From Alphaproteobacteria bacterium (GTDB lineage: Bacteria > Pseudomonadota > Alphaproteobacteria > UBA8366), in contig JAJFJD010000001.1 in assembly GCA_021774335.1 (NCBI GenBank), positions 248,001 through 312,000 on the forward strand: a stretch of 64,000 nucleotides of DNA, given 5' to 3'. Below, piece by piece: positions 41,212 through 50,752 of this stretch (within the stretch, counting starts at the first letter, position 1; every line of letters starts with the position of its first letter). The notes below the pieces were generated by a model. The model saw only the letters and a program-made list of their open reading frames with translations, ran no database searches and was not told where the DNA came from. The translations under genes and the position numbers were made by a program.

Positions 41212-41637
41212 TTACGGCGCGTCGGTGGCGAACACGCGATCGCGCGGTTGGGACTTGAATTCGACGATATTCCCGCAGCCGTCGGGCAGCATCATGATGT
41301 GCTGCTCCGCCGGTTTGCCCGCGAAGGACAGGCGCGGCGACAGCGTGAATTCGACATGCCGGTCCGTCAGCCGGCGCTCCATGTCCTTCCACTCGTCGAG
41401 CGGCAGGATCAGGCCGAAATGCCGCAGCGGCGCGGTGTCCCCGTCGGACGCGATGGTGCCGTTGGCCTTCCCCGCTTCGCGCGGTGAATGATGCGCCACG
41501 ATGTGATGGCCGAAAAAATTGATGTCGAAACGGCCCCGCGTCTCGCGCCCGATCTTGCAACCGAGCATATCGACATAGAACGCCTTCGCGCGGTCCAGAT
41601 CGTCGACGGGAATGGACAGATGAAACAACGGTTCCAT
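41212..41637 (-). CDS. VOC family protein
   Basis: LFHLSIPVDDLDRAKAFYVDMLGCKIGRETRGRFDINFFGHHIVAH...; VEFTLSPRLSFAGKPAEQHIMMLPDGCGNIVEFKS. Confidence 0.9.
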   Translation of the reverse strand: MEPLFHLSIPVDDLDRAKAFYVDMLGCKIGRETRGRFDINFFGHHIVAHHSPREAGKANGTIASDGDTAPLRHFGLILPLDEWKDMERRLTDRHVEFTLSPRLSFAGKPAEQHIMMLPDGCGNIVEFKSQPRDRVFATDAP

Positions 41638-41842
41638 GCGGCGCTCCTCGGTCGGTGGGTTTTCAAGCCCATGACAAAGGGTACGTCATGGGATCGAGGA
41701 AGTGAAATACCGGCATGCCCGCGGATAACCGGATTAGAGCAATTCGTCCCGATATTTCCCCTCCAAAGTTTCGGGATTAGCACTGGCGGGCGACTGGTCT
41801 TCATTGGCAGTTAATAGCCAATATGCGCCGATAGGATATCAA

Positions 41843-43375
41843 ATGGATATTGCGGCAAACATTCTCGAACGGCTCATCGAAGCTGGGTTTCTCCTGGCGC
41901 TTCCTTGGCCTGCCTGGCGGCTGGCCATGTTCCGGCCATTCCGGTATCAGGGGAGCAAGAAGGCAATCGCCTTGGCAGGGCTGCTTGCGGCCTATTCACT
42001 CCTGGTCGTCGCCATGGCCATCTTTACGCCGGCACTGCTTCGAATGCTGGCGATCTTAGCCCTTTTCATAGCCATCGGCTTGATCGGGTGGATGTGGCAT
42101 GGTTCCAGTCGTGGAAGGCGTGCCCTGCCCGGAAAATTTGAAATTTTGCCGTGGGGTCCGTATTTGGACCACCGTTTCTACCAACGACAGGCCGAACGGT
42201 ATGGACCCATCTTCAAGACGGGTTCCACGCTGCCATGCCCCTCACTGCGCCCTACCGTGTGCATCGTGGGCCATAAGGCGGGTCTCGACCTCCTTCGCCA
42301 ACACGACGACGCGTTGCAGCTATGGCCACCCGCCCCTTTCAGTCTCTTATTTCCGAAGGGCTTTCTGCGCTACATGAATCAGGATGATCATCCTGTTTAC
42401 AATCACCTGTTCAGGTCCGCGTTCTCGCCGAACTTCTTGAGTGGCTGTTCCACCGCGATCGATGCCGAGGCTACGAACGCACTATCCCGAATGGCTGCCG
42501 ACGCCAAATCCGGACAGGCGGACGGCGTCAAACCCCGGCCTTACCTGGACCAAATGCTGTTCGCGATCTTTGCGCGTGTACTGTTCGGCATCCAACCCGG
42601 CAGCGATGCATTCACACGGCTGCTGCCGCTCTATCAACAGGTCAACATCCCACGGCTCACGCTGCGATCATCACGGAAGAGGGCGCAGGAAAACCTCGGG
42701 CGATTGACAGATTTTCTTGTCCAGGAGGCGCAGCGCGATCAAGCGGATTGCGGTCATTCCGTCTCGCTGCTTTCTGAAATCGCGCGGGTCAACCCGACCA
42801 AATTCGATGACCCAACCATACTCGGCAACCTGATTTTCATGCTGGAATCCGGGTGCAACGATGTGGGTGGATTACTCATGTGGATTCTCAAGCACCTCGG
42901 GGATCACCCCGAGTGGATGGAGCGACTGCAGGACCAAACACCCTGTCCCCAGAATTTACGCTCCTTGGCCGATCGAATAGTCAGCGAGACATTGCGGCTC
43001 GAGCAGAGCGAGTATCTGCATCGGAAAGCCATCCGCGATCTCGACTTCGGCGATTACGTAATTCCCAAGGGTTGGCTGATTCGAATTTGCATCAGAGACG
43101 GACATCAGGATTCCCAGGTCTTCAAAGACCCCGCCAAATTCGATCCGGACCGGTTCATCGATCGAAAATTCTCACATATCGAATATGCGCCCTTCGGCCT
43201 CTTCCGGCATATGTGCGTCGGCGACCGGCTGACCCACGAGATCACCTGTACCTTCCTTGCCGCTTTGGCGAAAAGTTACGCTCTCGAGGCCACCAAAGAT
43301 GGACCGCCGGAACACACCCGCTTTCATTGGGCGCCGAATCCAGAATTCCGTCTCCGGCTGACGACGAAGGACTGA
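41843..43375 (+). CDS. Membrane-anchored atypical cytochrome P450
   Basis: N-term hydrophobic helices; K-helix ETLR in IVSETLRLEQ; haem loop YAPFGLFRHMCVGDRL; PERF-like KFDPDRFID. Track ORF starts at 41804. Confidence 0.82.
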   Translation: MDIAANILERLIEAGFLLALPWPAWRLAMFRPFRYQGSKKAIALAGLLAAYSLLVVAMAIFTPALLRMLAILALFIAIGLIGWMWHGSSRGRRALPGKFEILPWGPYLDHRFYQRQAERYGPIFKTGSTLPCPSLRPTVCIVGHKAGLDLLRQHDDALQLWPPAPFSLLFPKGFLRYMNQDDHPVYNHLFRSAFSPNFLSGCSTAIDAEATNALSRMAADAKSGQADGVKPRPYLDQMLFAIFARVLFGIQPGSDAFTRLLPLYQQVNIPRLTLRSSRKRAQENLGRLTDFLVQEAQRDQADCGHSVSLLSEIARVNPTKFDDPTILGNLIFMLESGCNDVGGLLMWILKHLGDHPEWMERLQDQTPCPQNLRSLADRIVSETLRLEQSEYLHRKAIRDLDFGDYVIPKGWLIRICIRDGHQDSQVFKDPAKFDPDRFIDRKFSHIEYAPFGLFRHMCVGDRLTHEITCTFLAALAKSYALEATKDGPPEHTRFHWAPNPEFRLRLTTKD

Positions 43376-43476
43376 TCCCCCCTCAGGACACCACCGGGCC
43401 AACTCACTCGACGATCTGAGAAACCCATTGTGGGCAATCTTTTAGGACGTCGACGTTGACTAAAGGGATACTCACA

Positions 43477-43590
43477 GTGGCCGATAGACCGGTGGAGCTG
43501 TCATCGCCTACGATTAAGGATATTCCTTCGACAGCCGCGCAAATTAACCGGAGGAATCAAATATTTATCCGATTTGTACAGATTCCATAA
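43477..43590 (+). CDS. Candidate 37-aa small ORF preceding the PqqD/HprK-like operon
   Basis: GTG start with AAGGGA upstream: (M)ADRPVELSSPTIKDIPSTAAQINRRNQIFIRFVQIP*. Not in track; purely a reading-frame observation. Confidence 0.2.
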   Translation: MADRPVELSSPTIKDIPSTAAQINRRNQIFIRFVQIP

Positions 43591-43647
43591 TCTCTCGCGG
43601 AAAATTGGAAAACGACGCGCATCAATTAATGGATCGATGTTCCGATC

Positions 43648-44790
43648 ATGACCGGTTTTCGCCATACGTTTTCCATTATTACCAAGGCGTTGAACGTCGA
43701 TCCGGCCGCTGACGATAGCGACGGGTTGGCGGCGGATCTCTCTGACCCGGACCTGGATTGGTCGCTTCTGCTTCGCCTGGCCGACCAGGAACATGTGACC
43801 GGCGCGTTTGCGGTAGCACTGCGCCGGCGAGATCTCTTCGACGGCCTTCCTCGTGAGGCCCAGCAGGCATTGCGCCGTCGCTACTTCATGGGCCAGGAGA
43901 TCAACACGCGGATCAAGAGCGAAGCCGAGGAAGTCGTCGGTTTGCTCAACTCGGTTGGATGTACGCCAATGATCCTGAAGGGCGGCCTCTTTCTCTTCGA
44001 AACGCCACCGGATGGGATCGGCGGACGCGTCCTTCGGGACCTCGACATGGTCGTGCCGCTTGCCGACCTCGAAGCCTGCGTCGACGTCATGCAAGCTGCA
44101 GGATACGAGCCCAAGGACGCGGAAGAGCGTTGGACCTACCATTACCGTCCGCTCCACCATAAGGAACGGATGGTTCCGGTTGAGCTTCACATTCAAGCGG
44201 GCGAACAGCGCCATTTCATCAATGCCGAGGAGGCATGGGCGCATGCGGTTCCGGTGGATGTTGACGGCCTAAAAATGGTCGCGCTCTCGCCCGAACACCG
44301 TGTCATGCACAATATCTTCAATTCCGAAATTCAGGACACAGGGTTTTTGCTGGGCGAGGTCTGTCTGCGCCAACTCATAGATTTGGCCGCGATCTGTGTC
44401 CGGTATGAAGACACGCTGGATTGGCATTCGATCGACCGCCACTTGCAAGCCCATGGCATGGGCCGGGCTTTCCGGGCGCGTCTGCTATTGGTTCGCGAAC
44501 TGCTGGGAGGGCCGGTTCCCGAGGATTTGGACACGAATACCTTGAGCGCCCGTTTTCATCTCAAACACTGCCTGATCCAGCAAAAATCGCCGCGCCTGAC
44601 CTATCTGACGCGCTGGGTCGCGGGCGTCACCGCCCCCCTGAAACCGCATCATCTCGATCTTACCTACGAATGCGGCACGCGCGGCTTCCGCATGCACGCC
44701 CACCGGATCAAACACATCTTCAAGGTCATCAGCCAGCACCGGGGCGGCATTCGGGAATCGCTGGCCAAATACGGTCAGTCAATGCAATGA
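43648..44790 (+). CDS. Nucleotidyltransferase family protein (NTP_transf_5-like)
   Basis: MILKGGLFLFETPPDGIGGRVLRDLDMVVPLADLEACVDVMQAAGYE and WTYHYRPLHHKERMVPVELHI pattern; coupled to the HprK-like gene by an ATGA overlap. Confidence 0.8.
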   Translation: MTGFRHTFSIITKALNVDPAADDSDGLAADLSDPDLDWSLLLRLADQEHVTGAFAVALRRRDLFDGLPREAQQALRRRYFMGQEINTRIKSEAEEVVGLLNSVGCTPMILKGGLFLFETPPDGIGGRVLRDLDMVVPLADLEACVDVMQAAGYEPKDAEERWTYHYRPLHHKERMVPVELHIQAGEQRHFINAEEAWAHAVPVDVDGLKMVALSPEHRVMHNIFNSEIQDTGFLLGEVCLRQLIDLAAICVRYEDTLDWHSIDRHLQAHGMGRAFRARLLLVRELLGGPVPEDLDTNTLSARFHLKHCLIQQKSPRLTYLTRWVAGVTAPLKPHHLDLTYECGTRGFRMHAHRIKHIFKVISQHRGGIRESLAKYGQSMQ

Positions 44791-45869
44791 GCACCGACAG
44801 CGCCGCCACCCTGCCGGCCCAGGAAATCGAGATCGCGGACGCGATCGACAAATTGGACGACACGTTCACAGGCGTGGCCAGCCGGCCGCCGAATTCGATC
44901 GTGGAGATGGACTATCGGATCGCGGGATTCCCGGTCCGACTGCGCATTGTCGGTGATGATCTGGCGGCCGACATCGATCGGTCGCTATGCCATTTGCGCG
45001 TACCGGACGGCATCGACCCCGCCCTGACGGTCGAGGTCTGGGACGAAGAAGTGGCCGGCCCGGCCTTCTGGACCCGGTGGCCGGAAGAGGTCGATTTCTA
45101 CGGCAATGTCTCGGTAACGCCCGACGCCCGATATGTCCTGCACCAACGCGAATCGACGGTCATGCTGTTGGATCGTCAAGCGAACCGCATTACCGGCTGC
45201 GTCCGGAAGCGATCGCTGCTGTTCCTCGATGAGCGGGCGCGGCCGTTTCATCGCCTTTTGTCGATCTGGCTGGACGATCAGGACGTGCAGTTCATCCACG
45301 CGGCCCTGGCAATCGCCGAGAACGAAGGCATGCTCTTCGTGGGCAGCGGCGGGTCCGGCAAGAGCACGTCGTCGGTCGCCAGCTTCCTGGAAGGCTTCCA
45401 CTTCCTGAGTGATGATTTCGTCGCCTTGGCGCAGACGGAGACCGGCCAGATGATCGGTCATTCGCTCTACGCGACCTGCCTGATCGCGAACGACCATATC
45501 AGCCGGTTCCCAGCGCTCGCCGAGATAGCGCACAAACCGAACCACGACATAGAGCACAAATCCGTCGCGTATCTGTCAGATCACCCGAGCGGACGGTTTG
45601 CCCGGGAAACACCGATTTCTGCGGTGATTCTGCCGCGGGTGGTCGACCAGCCCCGGACCACCTATCGGCCCGCAAAATCGATGGAAGCCATGCTCGCGCT
45701 CGCACCAAGCTCGATCATCATCCTGCCGGGCGCGGCGCCAAGGTCGCTGGACAAACTGGGCGACCTGGTAACAACGGTGCCGGCCTTCTGGCTGGAGCTT
45801 GGTCACGACGTCGGCGAGATCGGCCCCACCGTCCGGCGCATCAGCCGCGAGGTCGCCGGCAATGCATAG
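44787..45869 (+). CDS. HprK-related serine kinase-like P-loop protein
   Basis: IHAALAIAENEGMLFVGSGGSGKSTSSVASFLEGFHFLSDDFVAL: Walker A GSGGSGKST and SDD acidic motif typical of HPr kinase-related proteins. Confidence 0.8.
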   Translation: MSTDSAATLPAQEIEIADAIDKLDDTFTGVASRPPNSIVEMDYRIAGFPVRLRIVGDDLAADIDRSLCHLRVPDGIDPALTVEVWDEEVAGPAFWTRWPEEVDFYGNVSVTPDARYVLHQRESTVMLLDRQANRITGCVRKRSLLFLDERARPFHRLLSIWLDDQDVQFIHAALAIAENEGMLFVGSGGSGKSTSSVASFLEGFHFLSDDFVALAQTETGQMIGHSLYATCLIANDHISRFPALAEIAHKPNHDIEHKSVAYLSDHPSGRFARETPISAVILPRVVDQPRTTYRPAKSMEAMLALAPSSIIILPGAAPRSLDKLGDLVTTVPAFWLELGHDVGEIGPTVRRISREVAGNA

Positions 45870-47049
45870 CGGCAAGCCCATTCGACTGCTCTACTGGACC
45901 GAGTTCTTCTGGCCCACGATCGGCGGTGTCGAAACCCTCGCGGCCCAGGTTATCCCCGTCCTCAAAAAACGGGGCTACGACATCACGGTGGTGACGACCC
46001 AGCAGTTCGATTACCCCGAACACGAAATCCTCGACGAAACGACCATCCACCGCCTGCCGTTTCATGAGGTTCTCCGCAGCCGCGACCCCGAAGCGTTTAT
46101 CAGACTACGGCGAAGAATCGGGTCGATCCGGGACGACGTCGCCCCCGACCTGATCCACGCGAACCTCTACGGCCCCAGTATCGCTTTGCATCTTGAAAGC
46201 AACAGGCGGGCACCGATCCCGACGGTGGTCGCGATCCACGCGGATTTCTCGGAATCGGGCGGGATGGGCGGCATCGTCCACCGCGCCTTCGACGAAGCAG
46301 CATGGGTCACCGCCGTGTCGGACGCCACCCTGGGCGACATCCGATCGATGTTCCCCGAGATACAGGACAAGTCGTCCCGCATCTACAATGGGCTGACCGC
46401 CGGCAACGCAAAACCGACGCCAATGCCCGCCGGGCCGCCGCATATATTGTGCATCGGCCGGCTCATCCGGGAAAAGGGCTTCGATGTCGCGCTAAATGCA
46501 TTCGCCAATGTCCGCGAAAGCTTTCCGGACGCCCGGCTCACGGTCGCGGGCGACGGGCCGGAAAGGCCGGCGCTCGAAGAACAGGCTAGGAGCCTTGGGC
46601 TCGAAGGCTCGGTGACATTCCCCGGCTGGGTGGAGCCGGACTCGGTCTTCGACCTGATCAGCCGGTCAACCGTCATGGCGATCCCCTCGCGCTGGCGCGA
46701 ACCCTTCGGCCTCGTCGCGATCGAGGCCGCGCTCATGGCGCGACCCGTGGTCGCGGCCCGGACCGGTGGCCTGGCGGAGGTCGTGATCGACGGAAAGACC
46801 GGATACCTCGTCGGCAAAGAGAACCCGTTGGCGCTCGCCGAAAGGCTCAAACTCCTGCTCTCGCAGCCCCGTCTTGCCGAGGGCCTTGGTCAGGCTGCGC
46901 GCAAGGACACAATCGAGCGGTTCAGCATCGATGCCAATGTGGACGCCTATGACGCGCTGTATCGCCGGGTGCTGGACAGTTCCTTGGATCAATCGGCCGT
47001 CCCGCAGAATGCGATGACGGGGACGAACCAGCCTCCCCCATCAGCTTGA
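45862..47049 (+). CDS. Glycosyltransferase family 4 protein
   Basis: LLYWTEFFWPTIGGVETLAAQVIPVLKKRGYDITVVT; HILCIGRLIREKGFDVALNAF; REPFGLVAIEAALMARPVVAARTGGLAEVVIDGKTGYLV. Confidence 0.92.
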   Translation: MHSGKPIRLLYWTEFFWPTIGGVETLAAQVIPVLKKRGYDITVVTTQQFDYPEHEILDETTIHRLPFHEVLRSRDPEAFIRLRRRIGSIRDDVAPDLIHANLYGPSIALHLESNRRAPIPTVVAIHADFSESGGMGGIVHRAFDEAAWVTAVSDATLGDIRSMFPEIQDKSSRIYNGLTAGNAKPTPMPAGPPHILCIGRLIREKGFDVALNAFANVRESFPDARLTVAGDGPERPALEEQARSLGLEGSVTFPGWVEPDSVFDLISRSTVMAIPSRWREPFGLVAIEAALMARPVVAARTGGLAEVVIDGKTGYLVGKENPLALAERLKLLLSQPRLAEGLGQAARKDTIERFSIDANVDAYDALYRRVLDSSLDQSAVPQNAMTGTNQPPPSA

Positions 47050-47086
47050 TGAATTTACCAATTCAACAAATAGAAAAAGAAACAAC

Positions 47087-47503
47087 ATGCACAAGCTCCT
47101 CAAACCCAACACAGCAGAAGTCGCCGCCAAGGAAGTCGACGGCGAAGCGGTTCTGATCAACCTTTCCAACGGCATGTATTACAGCATGGACCTCGTCGGC
47201 GGCTTCATCTGGTCCCTGATTGAAAACGGGAACGACCTGGATACGATCGTCGACGCCGTCGCCAACCGCTACGGCATCGAAAAATCCGTGGCCGCGGCGG
47301 ATGTGGAAACCCTGACCAAGCAACTCGTCGAGGAAAGGCTCGCGCTGCCGAACGATGAAGGCGCGGCAGCCAACCCGGCCATCCCGGAGAACGCACCCGA
47401 CGGGGACGCCTATTCTGCGCCGCAGCTCAACAAATTCGACGACATGGTCGACCTCTTTGCGCTGGATCCGCCGCTTCCCGAGCTTTCGTCACTCAAGCCG
47501 TAG
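47087..47503 (+). CDS. PqqD/RRE-family protein with extended C-terminal tail
   Basis: KEVDGEAVLINLSNGMYYSMDLVGGFIWSLIENGNDLDTIVDAVANRYGIEKSVAAADVETLTKQLVEERLA is a PqqD-like winged helix; tail YSAPQLNKFDDMVDLFALDPPLPELSS. Confidence 0.85.
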   Translation: MHKLLKPNTAEVAAKEVDGEAVLINLSNGMYYSMDLVGGFIWSLIENGNDLDTIVDAVANRYGIEKSVAAADVETLTKQLVEERLALPNDEGAAANPAIPENAPDGDAYSAPQLNKFDDMVDLFALDPPLPELSSLKP

Positions 47504-47519
47504 AGCAGGCAGGTTCGAT

Positions 47520-48224
47520 ATGTCGGCCGACCCCGTCGTGAGTTGCGTGATCCCGGTGTTCAATGGCGAACGGTTCATCGCCGATTGCCTTGAGAGCGTG
47601 CTGCAACAAACCTACAGCCCGATGGAAGTCATCGTCGTGAACGACGGATCGACCGACGGCACCAAGGCGATTCTCGACGGATATGGTGCCCTAATCTCAG
47701 TGATCGATCAGCCGAACGCCGGCGTGAAAGCCGCCCGAAACCGTGGCATGGCGGCGGCGGCGGGCGCCATCATCGCCTTTCAGGATGCCGACGATTTGTG
47801 GGTGCCGGAGAAAACCGAGTTGCAGGTCGACCGGCTGACCCGCAATCCGGGGGCGGGACTCTGCACGTGCATGATCGAAAATTTCTGGGAAGTCGAACTG
47901 GCCCACGAAGCAGAGCAACTGCGCGGGACCGAGCATGACGGCGCCCGCCTGACGACCTTGCAGGGGATGCTGCTCCGCCGGGACGCTTTCGATCGCATCG
48001 GCGGGTTCGGTACCGATTCCGGTCAAAACGACGAAACGGCGGGCTTGCTGTTCCATGCCAAGGCCGCGGGCGTGCCGGTCGAGCATGTCGATCAGGTGCT
48101 CGTCCGGCGGCGAATTCATGGGAACAACATGAGCCGCCAACAAGACGAAGGGCTGCGGACAGATTTGCTCAAATTGGCGGAAGCGGCCATCGCGCGCCGC
48201 CGAGCGTCAAATGCCAAACCCTGA
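47520..48224 (+). CDS. Glycosyltransferase family 2 protein
   Basis: VSCVIPVFNGERFIADCLESVLQQTYSPMEVIVVNDGSTDGTKAIL; AARNRGMAAAAGAIIAFQDADDLW (DADD). Start trimmed from the track ORF at 47355. Confidence 0.92.
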   Translation: MSADPVVSCVIPVFNGERFIADCLESVLQQTYSPMEVIVVNDGSTDGTKAILDGYGALISVIDQPNAGVKAARNRGMAAAAGAIIAFQDADDLWVPEKTELQVDRLTRNPGAGLCTCMIENFWEVELAHEAEQLRGTEHDGARLTTLQGMLLRRDAFDRIGGFGTDSGQNDETAGLLFHAKAAGVPVEHVDQVLVRRRIHGNNMSRQQDEGLRTDLLKLAEAAIARRRASNAKP

Positions 48225-49470
48225 CGATTTCGATGACCCGGTAGCGGAGATCAAGTCCGCGCTTGCCATCGTCCGGCCGGATCAAATCCGAACGCTGCTG
48301 TTGCGCGCCTGTGTGTGCGGCCCCGAGGCGGCGGCGGCGGCATGGCAAGACTTCCAGCAGCGCGTGGGAGACATAAAGCAGTTTTTCGAGACGGACATGA
48401 CGGGTCTCAAGGGGCTGCTGCCCATCGTCTACGGCGCCGCGCGCCGCAATAATTTTGCGCTCGAAAAAGAGCTTCAGTCCTATCTGCGGGTCGCCACCGT
48501 ACGCGAGGACTTGCGCAGTACTGTCATTCGAGAAATCCACACCGGCATTCTGGGGGCATTGACCGAGGCGAGTATCCCGGTTGTCGCCCTCCGGGGTGGC
48601 GCCTTGGCGGATACCGCATACCAGACACCGGTCGAGCGGCATTGTCATGCGCTTCATCTGCTCGTCCGTCCGGACGCGTTGACCGCTGCCGGTAAAGCCT
48701 TGCGCGGCTGCGATTTCGCGCCCGCGCGGCTGCCCGAGGCCGCACCCGGCGCGCGCCAAGGTTTCCGGCACAGGGACGGATTGCCGCTTGTGGTCCATGC
48801 GGCGCTGTATGACGCCCCGATCTATCAGGACGATGCGGAGGCACTCTGGTCGGCAAGCCTGCCCGCGGAGATCGCCGGCGTTCCGGTGCGCGTCCCCTCA
48901 CCGACCCATCACTTGATCTACATCCTGACCGCCGCCTTCCACGAGCGCACGCGGGGGCATTTGCGATGGGCATGCGACGCCATGCTGCTGATCAACGGGG
49001 CGCCCGGCATCGATTGGCCCGAATTCAGCCGCATGGTGAAGAGCGCCCGGCTCGAACTTCCCATCGACACGATGTTGCGGTTCCTAGTGGAACAATTGGA
49101 TGCGCCGGTGCCTCACGGGGTGCTCACCGCGCTCGACAAAAGTCCTAGTTGGACGAACCGCCGATCGCTCGAGGCAGCCTTGTCCGGCGCCGTTGGCGGC
49201 ATATCGACACTGCGCGAGATTTGGCGCCGCCGGATGCAAAGTAAACGCGGGCACCGGGCCTTACTCCGCTTTCTATTCCTGCCGTCCACCGATTTCCTGT
49301 TGTTCCGCTTTGGCCCGCGCGCCAAGGCCTTGTTGCCGATCCGCTACGCCTATCGCCCCGCCGCCTATGTGGGGCAGCGGCTGTTCTGGCGAATATCGGG
49401 ATTGCCCGTGTTCGGCCGGCTGACTCATAGCGGAAAGGTCGCCGCGGCCATCGCGAAGACGCGGACGTAG
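48211..49470 (+). CDS. Second NTP_transf_5-like protein, active-site motif degenerate
   Basis: [46 protein letters not shown] aligns with the 43648 gene; 14 nt overlap with GT2; ...[30 protein letters not shown]. Confidence 0.72.
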
Positions 49471-49612
49471 GTGACGTCCGTAACGAAGAATCCAACCATG
49501 CCCGCCGCGCCGGTGACCCACGCATAGACCGGTTGCATTTAACCATCCGACTGATCTACAACGTCGCTCCCGCGGCGATGGTCGGCGCGGGCAAACAATT
49601 TGGAGGTGCGTC

Positions 49613-49854
49613 ATGCCAAACCACCGCAACGACTACGACGAACCTTCCTTTCGAGCGCACGAGCAAGCGTAGGAAAGGGTTCCCGTCCGAAACCAGGGTC
49701 AAACGCGGGTATCGCGTTGTCCATGGAGACAAGGAACTTGTCGAAAAACTTGGCCGAAACGATCTCTGCCCCTGCGGTTCCGGGAGGCGGTTTCAAGCGC
49801 TGTTGCCTCAAGACCCGTCGATATGACGGAAGCCTCAGGGACGACTACTTTTAG
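49613..49854 (+). pseudogene. SEC-C motif small protein, readable only with two +1 frameshifts
   Basis: GGAGG 6 nt before the [16 protein letters not shown] | [47 protein letters not shown] | [25 protein letters not shown]...KRCC is the SEC-C zinc motif. Confidence 0.7.
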
Positions 49855-49892
49855 GGATGGATGACAGGCTGAATCAGCGCTGATCTGTCGAA

Positions 49893-49927
49893 GCGCCTGC
49901 ATTGCTGCCGTTCGGTGATGCAGGCGC
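49893..49927. terminator. Hairpin between SEC-C locus and minus-strand gene
   Basis: GCGCCTGCA (49893-49901) / TGCAGGCGC (49919-49927) perfect 9-bp stem between convergent genes; no strong U-tract. Confidence 0.4.
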
Positions 49928-49938
49928 ATCCTACGCGA

Positions 49939-50505
49939 CTAAGAACGGATGCGCCGAATCTCTTTGATCATCTGCAGGGCATCGGTGACGGCATCTCCGG
50001 AACCAGAATTCGTCAGAATCGTGAAGGTAACGGTCAGATCATCGATCACGATCGCCCCTTGGGTTAGGTAGCGATACCCACCCGGTTCGGGGTTTCGATC
50101 GGTTGCCGAGAAATAGTAGCCCTTGCCCAACCGGCCCGAGAATGGCCGTACTGGCAATTCCTGTTCGATCGCAGATGACGCGGCTTTGCCCGCAGACGCC
50201 TCCACTATCGACTTCGCGCTACGGACGCGGGCTTCGTCGCTCTTTTTGTTCACGTGCCAGATCGGGGTGATCAACACCTGAAATTTTGACGAATCCGCCG
50301 TCCGAAAGACAATTGTCGGCGGTGATTCGCCCCGCGGTTGATGTATCGAATCCGCCCACTCCGCCGGAACAGCAACAGCGATCGCCCCATGCCCCGGCAG
50401 GACATAGCGATTGCTCTTCGCGAACGCGTCGGTCGGATGAGACACGCCTATCACGGTGAGAAGTAGAAGAATAACTGAAACGACGTACAGTTTACCGCGC
50501 AGCAT
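49939..50505 (-). CDS. Hypothetical secreted protein
   Basis: Signal peptide MLRGKLYVVSVILLLLTVIGVSHPTDAFA; no confident family. Confidence 0.65.
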   Translation of the reverse strand: MLRGKLYVVSVILLLLTVIGVSHPTDAFAKSNRYVLPGHGAIAVAVPAEWADSIHQPRGESPPTIVFRTADSSKFQVLITPIWHVNKKSDEARVRSAKSIVEASAGKAASSAIEQELPVRPFSGRLGKGYYFSATDRNPEPGGYRYLTQGAIVIDDLTVTFTILTNSGSGDAVTDALQMIKEIRRIRS

Positions 50506-50752
50506 TCGAATACCCTGAAGTTGTCAGATGACAAACCAAGACCATTCGAGATTAGGGGCGGTTCGCTAACGAAAGTTTAAGACTAGCGCGATGAAAGAGG
50601 ACTGCGCAGCATCGTTGCCGCCGTTTCTGTCAGAGACGAATGGCGTCACGATTTATGGGACAGGGTGAACGGTAGCGGCCGGGCCATTAACAAAAACCGA
50701 AATCACCAACGATTGTGATGCGTGGGCCGCTCGACTGTGGCATCGAACAGGC

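Follow-up and report, generated by a model that had tools for sequence, protein, structure and literature searches.

A PqqD-type recognition protein with a conserved leader-like tail in a recurrent kinase, glycosyltransferase and NTP_transf_5 gene set: a candidate self-presenting modification system

A 64,000-nucleotide stretch of an alphaproteobacterial contig (JAJFJD010000001.1, positions 248,001 to 312,000; termed here the window) contains an operon encoding a PqqD-type recognition element (RRE) for ribosomally synthesized and post-translationally modified peptides (RiPPs), together with an HprK-like kinase, two glycosyltransferases and two NTP_transf_5 proteins. The PqqD protein carries a C-terminal tail that resembles the leader peptides bound by such elements, and PqqD proteins with tails of this kind recur in more than ten phyla, nearly always beside genes for an HprK-like kinase and a GT2 glycosyltransferase. 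The operon thus appears to be one copy of a widespread RRE-HprK-GT2-NTP_transf_5 system in which the recognition element would be fused to its own leader-like peptide. Here the evidence for this view is set out and weighed against other explanations of the same gene set.

Results

The PqqD protein and its tail

The PqqD domain ends at about residue 89, and residues 109-138 form a 30-residue tail, YSAPQLNKFDDMVDLFALDPPLPELSSLKP, composed of a leader-like motif, YSAPQLNKF (residues 109-117), a short helix, DMVDLF, and then LDPPLPELSSLKP. The likeness of this tail to YxxPxL, the leader motif of lasso peptides and of linear polyphosphorylated peptides (LPP), was overlooked in an earlier annotation of this DNA (the original prediction), which singled out the operon as a candidate undescribed modification system. 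By sequence and by fold the nearest solved relative of the protein is TbiB1, and its profile also matches 9x90 (PbaB1; 9e-14) and 9x8z (LppB; 1.4e-6).

The first relative found lies on a plasmid of Crinalium epipsammum, where PqqD, NTP_transf_5, HPr kinase and GT2 genes occur together and the PqqD protein ends in FEKPMLEKFTDMEDLLLLDPIHEVDVEAGWP. A pattern derived from the tail, run against 84,980 species genomes, yielded 360 tailed PqqD proteins, and the best 80 of these 360, which were examined, come from more than ten phyla (their labels include Magnetococcia, Deltaproteobacteria, Acidobacteria, Chloroflexi, Nitrospirae, Cyanobacteria, Bacteroidetes, Ignavibacteriae, Lentisphaerae, Chlamydiae, Planctomycetes, Eremiobacterota and others). 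Most tails among the examined members read [YF]xxPxLxKYxDMxDLLLLDPIHEVDxxGWP. Tail columns exceed the average of the RRE domain in conservation; those of [DE]L[LI]x[LVM]DP[IV]H[ED] are biased, because the scan pattern selected on them, whereas [YF]xxPxL, D-M and G-W-P lay outside the selection and yet rank with the protein's most conserved columns, GWP being near-invariant. One tail (L047) has two copies of GWP (DEKSGWPNVDDKKGWPTRN), perhaps as repeats of an acceptor unit. Position 118 (Thr or Ser in 77/96, Asp or Glu in 13/96) was considered as a phosphorylation site and is not claimed as one: such residues are expected at a helix cap, and the acidic replacements are not linked to loss of the kinase.

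Neighbourhood of tailed PqqD genes

Neighbours were counted by six-frame search in the 44 loci with adequate flanks (calling the longest open reading frames, or ORFs, undercounts HprK on account of long antisense ORFs). A GT2 gene is present in all 44, an HprK-like kinase in 42, an NTP_transf_5 gene in 38 and an ABC transporter in 13, so that the pairing of PqqD and kinase, whose absence from other genomes would have counted against the original prediction, is well borne out. Likewise, the absence of a lasso cyclase, which had been noted for the window, extends across the examined set: a phmmer search with a lasso-type synthase as query found an asparagine-synthetase-like cyclase in 0/80 loci. 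A kinase-first search that was blind to the tail (399 genomes) gave five further strong relatives, every one of which adjoins tailed PqqD and GT2 genes. As a control, loci of about 3 kb were compared by a single kind of search: tailed PqqD genes have a GT2 neighbour in 14/15 loci and a cyclase in 0/15, whereas for tail-less PqqD genes the counts are 1/23 and 8/23. The tail therefore marks a distinct class of PqqD proteins.

Some labels within this collection call for care. Three loci (L053, L063 and L115) encode near-identical tailed PqqD proteins in metagenome-assembled genomes labelled Alphaproteobacteria and Acidobacteria, reflecting either recent transfer or misbinned contigs, and one (L060) lies in a metagenome-assembled genome whose label, Klebsiella pneumoniae, is doubtful.

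Predicted docking of the tail

Discrete RREs of lasso and LPP systems have a groove that binds [Y/W]xxPx[L/V/I/F/A], where leader residues at +6 to +8 from the Trp add a strand to the RRE sheet and where D70 of LppB hydrogen-bonds the leader Tyr; in the crystal, residues -9 to -7 of PbaA (Trp-15 +6 to +8) pair with PbaB1 (PMC13381572). An AlphaFold2 model of the window protein (39 sequences, pLDDT 86.7) places a strand at residues 115-117, that is, at Tyr109 +6 to +8, with a pLDDT of about 91 over residues 111-120, and the model of a cyanobacterial member has a strand at Phe +5 to +8 (pLDDT about 97). This register matches that of the solved leader complexes, from which the partner of the strand is taken to be the protein's own RRE; self-docking of the tail is accordingly predicted with good confidence. 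The DPIHEVD..GWP stretch that follows the short helix is modelled at low confidence (55-59), as expected for an exposed peptide.

The choice of aromatic residue in the tail also goes with one position of the domain. Position 72, which by hand alignment is the equivalent of LppB D70, is acidic (Asp or Glu) in 11 of the 18 Tyr tails versus 6 of the 71 Phe tails (Fisher 6e-6), and in 6/9 versus 0/19 among representatives below 40% identity (2e-4); the position was picked from the published contact, but a few sequences had already been inspected before the test. This co-occurrence lends support to docking in the leader groove, though it is not proof.

The operon and its enzymes

All six genes lie on one strand in the order originally described (Table 1), as their ORF positions and Pfam matches confirm: NTP_transf_5, GT4, PqqD, GT2 and the second NTP_transf_5 all score above cut-off, and only the HPr-kinase match is weak. 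The overlaps reported earlier are present (ATGA at 44787-44790, 8 nt at 45862-45869 and 14 nt at 48211-48224), and the remaining gaps are 37 nt between GT4 and PqqD and 16 nt between PqqD and GT2, a layout that supports the proposed co-expression. The start of the operon at 43477 has to be corrected, since the first gene begins with the ATG at 43648 and the GTG near 43478 is out of frame with it.

Table 1. Features of the operon and its upstream neighbour (window coordinates).
Feature	Position	Strand	Length and evidence
NTP_transf_5 protein A	43648..44790	+	380 aa; PF14907 E 3.4e-37; KGG...RDLD motif present (alignment)
HprK-like kinase	44787..45869	+	360 aa; PF07475 (Hpr_kinase_C) 8.8e-4 and TIGR04352 1.7e-9, both under curated cut-offs
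GT4 glycosyltransferase	45862..47049	+	395 aa; PF00534 5e-40; equivalent position in L141 and L142
PqqD/RRE protein with C-terminal tail	47087..47503	+	138 aa; PF05402 1.1e-15
PqqD tail, residues 109-138	47411..47500	+	alignments, AlphaFold2, column conservation
GT2 glycosyltransferase	47520..48224	+	234 aa; PF00535 9.4e-33
NTP_transf_5 protein B	48211..49470	+	419 aa; PF14907 5.1e-30; RHCHALHLL at the expected Asp-x-Asp site
Cytochrome P450 (neighbour only)	41804..43375	+	PF00067 3e-27

Three alphaproteobacterial loci of one family (L141, L142 and L143) have tails that end in DPPLP like that of the window. Two of them, L141 and L142, share the exact order NTP_transf_5-HprK-GT4-PqqD-GT2-NTP_transf_5 at 34-49% identity, so the conserved synteny that the original prediction proposed to look for exists, and the arrangement is more than chance. 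A PF01663 type I phosphodiesterase/nucleotide pyrophosphatase gene adjoins the operon in L142 (4458-6179) and L143 (5988-7748), and L141 has a partial ORF related to it; the window operon is without such a neighbour.

The kinase has the P-loop GSGGSGKS, His171 and Asp209-Asp210, all conserved across about 75 relatives, and shares 28% identity with the HPr kinase of Crinalium. Because these positions are intact, its assignment as an HprK-type P-loop kinase, already made in the original prediction, is sound despite a Pfam score below cut-off. A genome-contig search with the kinase alone returned no confirmed relative, and in sequence searches of the PDB neither the kinase nor the NTP_transf_5 alignment gave a match.

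The two NTP_transf_5 proteins differ in a manner that had escaped the original prediction. Protein A, whose KGG...RDLD motif is intact, is probably active. In protein B the Asp pair is gone: where the first NTP_transf_5 protein has R..DLD, protein B has RHCHA in the window, L141 and L142 and RHCHE in L143, so that it is probably altered catalytically. That RHCH[AE] replaces R..DLD in all four loci suggests that this paralogue has been kept for binding rather than for catalysis, and protein B is thus likely to be a pseudo-nucleotidyltransferase retained beside an active paralogue.

Genomic setting

The kinase was absent from the window's near relatives (191 genomes), as was a tailed PqqD (44 genomes of the order), and in a congener (G001) both flanks are collinear while about 9 kb (window 41345-50673), including the P450 gene and the operon, is missing. 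The set is therefore patchy in this lineage, having been either gained by transfer or lost by relatives. The stretch before 41345, back to 36.5 kb, is mostly missing from the congener too. The P450 is not taken as a member of the pathway, despite lying in the missing segment, as it is about 270 nt away and absent from the homologous operons; it weakly resembles the RiPP P450 ApyO (80 bits versus a cut-off of 525). Directly downstream of the operon lies a small ORF with a C-terminal SEC-C motif (49533-49826). Phage, PHROGs and PADLOC searches returned zero matches, and thus no sign of a phage or a catalogued defence system.

Relation to known systems

The closest relative of the window system is that of the LPP (Nat Commun 2026; PMC13381572). 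The two have in common a lasso-type RRE (the discrete RRE of the window is recognized by PF05402 and by the PbaB1 and LppB profile matches given above), an HprK-like kinase, an NTP transferase, a YxxP motif and the lack of a macrolactam cyclase; LPP loci often include an MsbA-like ABC transporter, which may be compared with the ABC transporters of the tailed loci. They differ in that LPP systems, found in Bacillota only, encode their precursors separately (YxxPxVLxHQxIxFETxxS) and include a SipW-like leader peptidase, whereas in the window system the RRE itself carries the motif, GT2 is constant, neither such a peptidase (SpI) beside the operon nor a separate precursor was detected, and the distribution spans more than ten phyla.

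In pseudomycoidin biosynthesis the HprK-type PsmK and the NTP_transf-like PsmN phosphorylate and hexosylate a peptide delivered by an RRE, PsmN adding hexoses to phospho-Ser (PMC9266682). Lasso systems of the paeninodin/pseudomycoidin type thus share with the tailed loci an HprK-type kinase, a nucleotidyltransferase-annotated enzyme and an RRE-delivered peptide, besides the likeness in RRE fold to TbiB1; the tailed loci differ from them in their lack of the cyclase, in the RRE tail of 30-50 aa and in the added GT2. Membership of the lasso families was rejected, as NF033536 gave 55.9 bits (cut-off 80) and NF033530 44.6 bits (cut-off 70), and so was a PqqD of pyrroloquinoline quinone biosynthesis (TIGR03859, 18.4 bits versus 46).

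The HPr-rel-A system combines an HprK-related kinase with a PqqD partner, and the original prediction had named it as a precedent. This link fails: the window kinase scores 37.2 bits against TIGR04352 (cut-off 200), with no TIGR04353 match, and the kinases of other members score 29-38 bits or do not match, their PqqD proteins being likewise without a TIGR04353 match. No tested NCBIfam model was reached, so that no curated family covers the gene set, in keeping with the original suggestion of an undescribed system; a literature search with partial coverage, which did find LPP and lasso work, gave no account of the tail or of the gene set outside Bacillota. The gene set is apparently undescribed, being set apart from LPP, lasso and HPr-rel-A systems by the tests run.

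Discussion

A proposed self-presenting recognition element and its alternatives

The mechanism proposed here is that the YxxPxL part of the tail would dock in the leader groove of the same protein's RRE, or in that of a partner subunit, and extend the sheet by one beta strand, and that the docked tail would thereby present a short exposed C-terminal stretch (mostly LDPIHEVDxxGWP; LDPPLP... in the window's clade) to the enzymes. The kinase, protein A of the NTP_transf_5 pair and the glycosyltransferases would then build a phosphate and sugar modification on this stretch or on a group upon it, with protein B as a non-catalytic partner, so that one protein would serve as precursor, leader and recognition element. 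Supporting this are the kinase and GT2 genes that almost always flank a tailed PqqD, and the fit of the window tail to the motif bound by discrete lasso and LPP RREs. By analogy with the known systems the peptide may be phosphorylated, nucleotidylated or glycosylated, and the HprK-like and NTP_transf enzyme types, taken together with GT2, suggest a phospho-glycan product.

Several observations weigh against the proposal. The exposed stretch has no conserved Ser or Thr, whereas the known HprK-like kinases of LPP and lasso systems phosphorylate Ser of the precursor (PMC13381572; PMC9266682). The DPPLP clade has lost HEVD..GWP and kept the enzymes, and within it L143 is without the kinase and GT4 beside its PqqD locus. 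Conversely, the tails of three f144 loci (L009-L011) have lost YxxP and kept DPIHEVEEPLGWP / DPIHEV..GWP, which indicates that the docking motif and the end motif can evolve independently of each other. By mutual information with average product correction, the 72-109 pair comes no higher than 12th among 1817 domain-tail pairs. Finally, no dedicated transporter or leader peptidase accompanies the window operon (no SipW-like peptidase or MsbA-like transporter was recognized beside it; no genome-wide search was made). Owing to the lack of a conserved Ser or Thr and the loss of the His and GWP from the DPPLP clade, a tail that is itself modified or carries the product is judged somewhat short of an even bet, and considerable room, though less, is left for a tail that acts as a plug and adaptor. 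On that alternative, the tail would fill the groove of the RRE and offer its exposed end as a docking epitope, by which PqqD, as a stable adaptor, would assemble the kinase, GT2 and NTP_transf_5 proteins on some other acceptor (for instance a glycan, lipid-linked sugar or unlinked protein). An end without a conserved hydroxyl residue, in which DP, H and GWP are near-invariant, does resemble a binding epitope; the constancy of GT2 would fit glycan assembly; and a built-in leader would stabilize the RRE, given that LppB is insoluble without leader (PMC13381572). On the other hand, no glycan acceptor, polymerase or flippase gene is common to the loci, and a tethered leader blocking the groove would waste the known function of an RRE.

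Two further explanations fare less well. In an ordinary LPP-type RiPP pathway, a separate precursor, encoded elsewhere in the genome or missed, would displace a regulatory tail; this is improbable, even though the gene content (RRE, HprK, NTP transferase and often an ABC transporter) fits and precursors are small and easily overlooked. Small ORFs with [YFW]xxPxL in the 41-51 kb region are all out-of-frame or antisense inside genes, none there encodes a precursor with the LPP-type leader, no conserved small ORF was recognized across the 80 loci, and any precursor would face competition from the motif within the tail. The fused tail is therefore the only candidate peptide. Still less probable is a fragment of an ordinary capsule or exopolysaccharide locus carrying PqqD and HprK as passengers, the outcome that the original prediction had named as its refutation: the operon does have two glycosyltransferases, and similar RRE systems of Bacilli sit within capsule loci, but this small set recurs across phyla without a constant exopolysaccharide context, and no Wzx/Wzy-type gene was recognized among the genes of 41.8-51.5 kb.

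Implications

RREs are taken as adaptors for separate precursor peptides. Tentatively, the tailed proteins may instead constitute a cross-phylum class of self-presenting modified proteins that combine RRE, leader and acceptor in one polypeptide and on whose near-invariant end a phospho-glycan is built by a kinase, GT2 enzymes and an NTP_transf_5 protein; PqqD would then be a protein-borne carrier, much as glycogenin or carrier proteins are, and not the chaperone of a separate peptide. If true, such a large and widely spread family would change how these loci are mined, since they would have no small precursor gene to look for. A single polypeptide would also become available on which to test what HprK-type kinases and the uncharacterized family PF14907 do, and the tail motif (DLLLLDPIHEVD...GWP), which lies outside every NCBIfam model tested, is an easy handle with which to search for further members.

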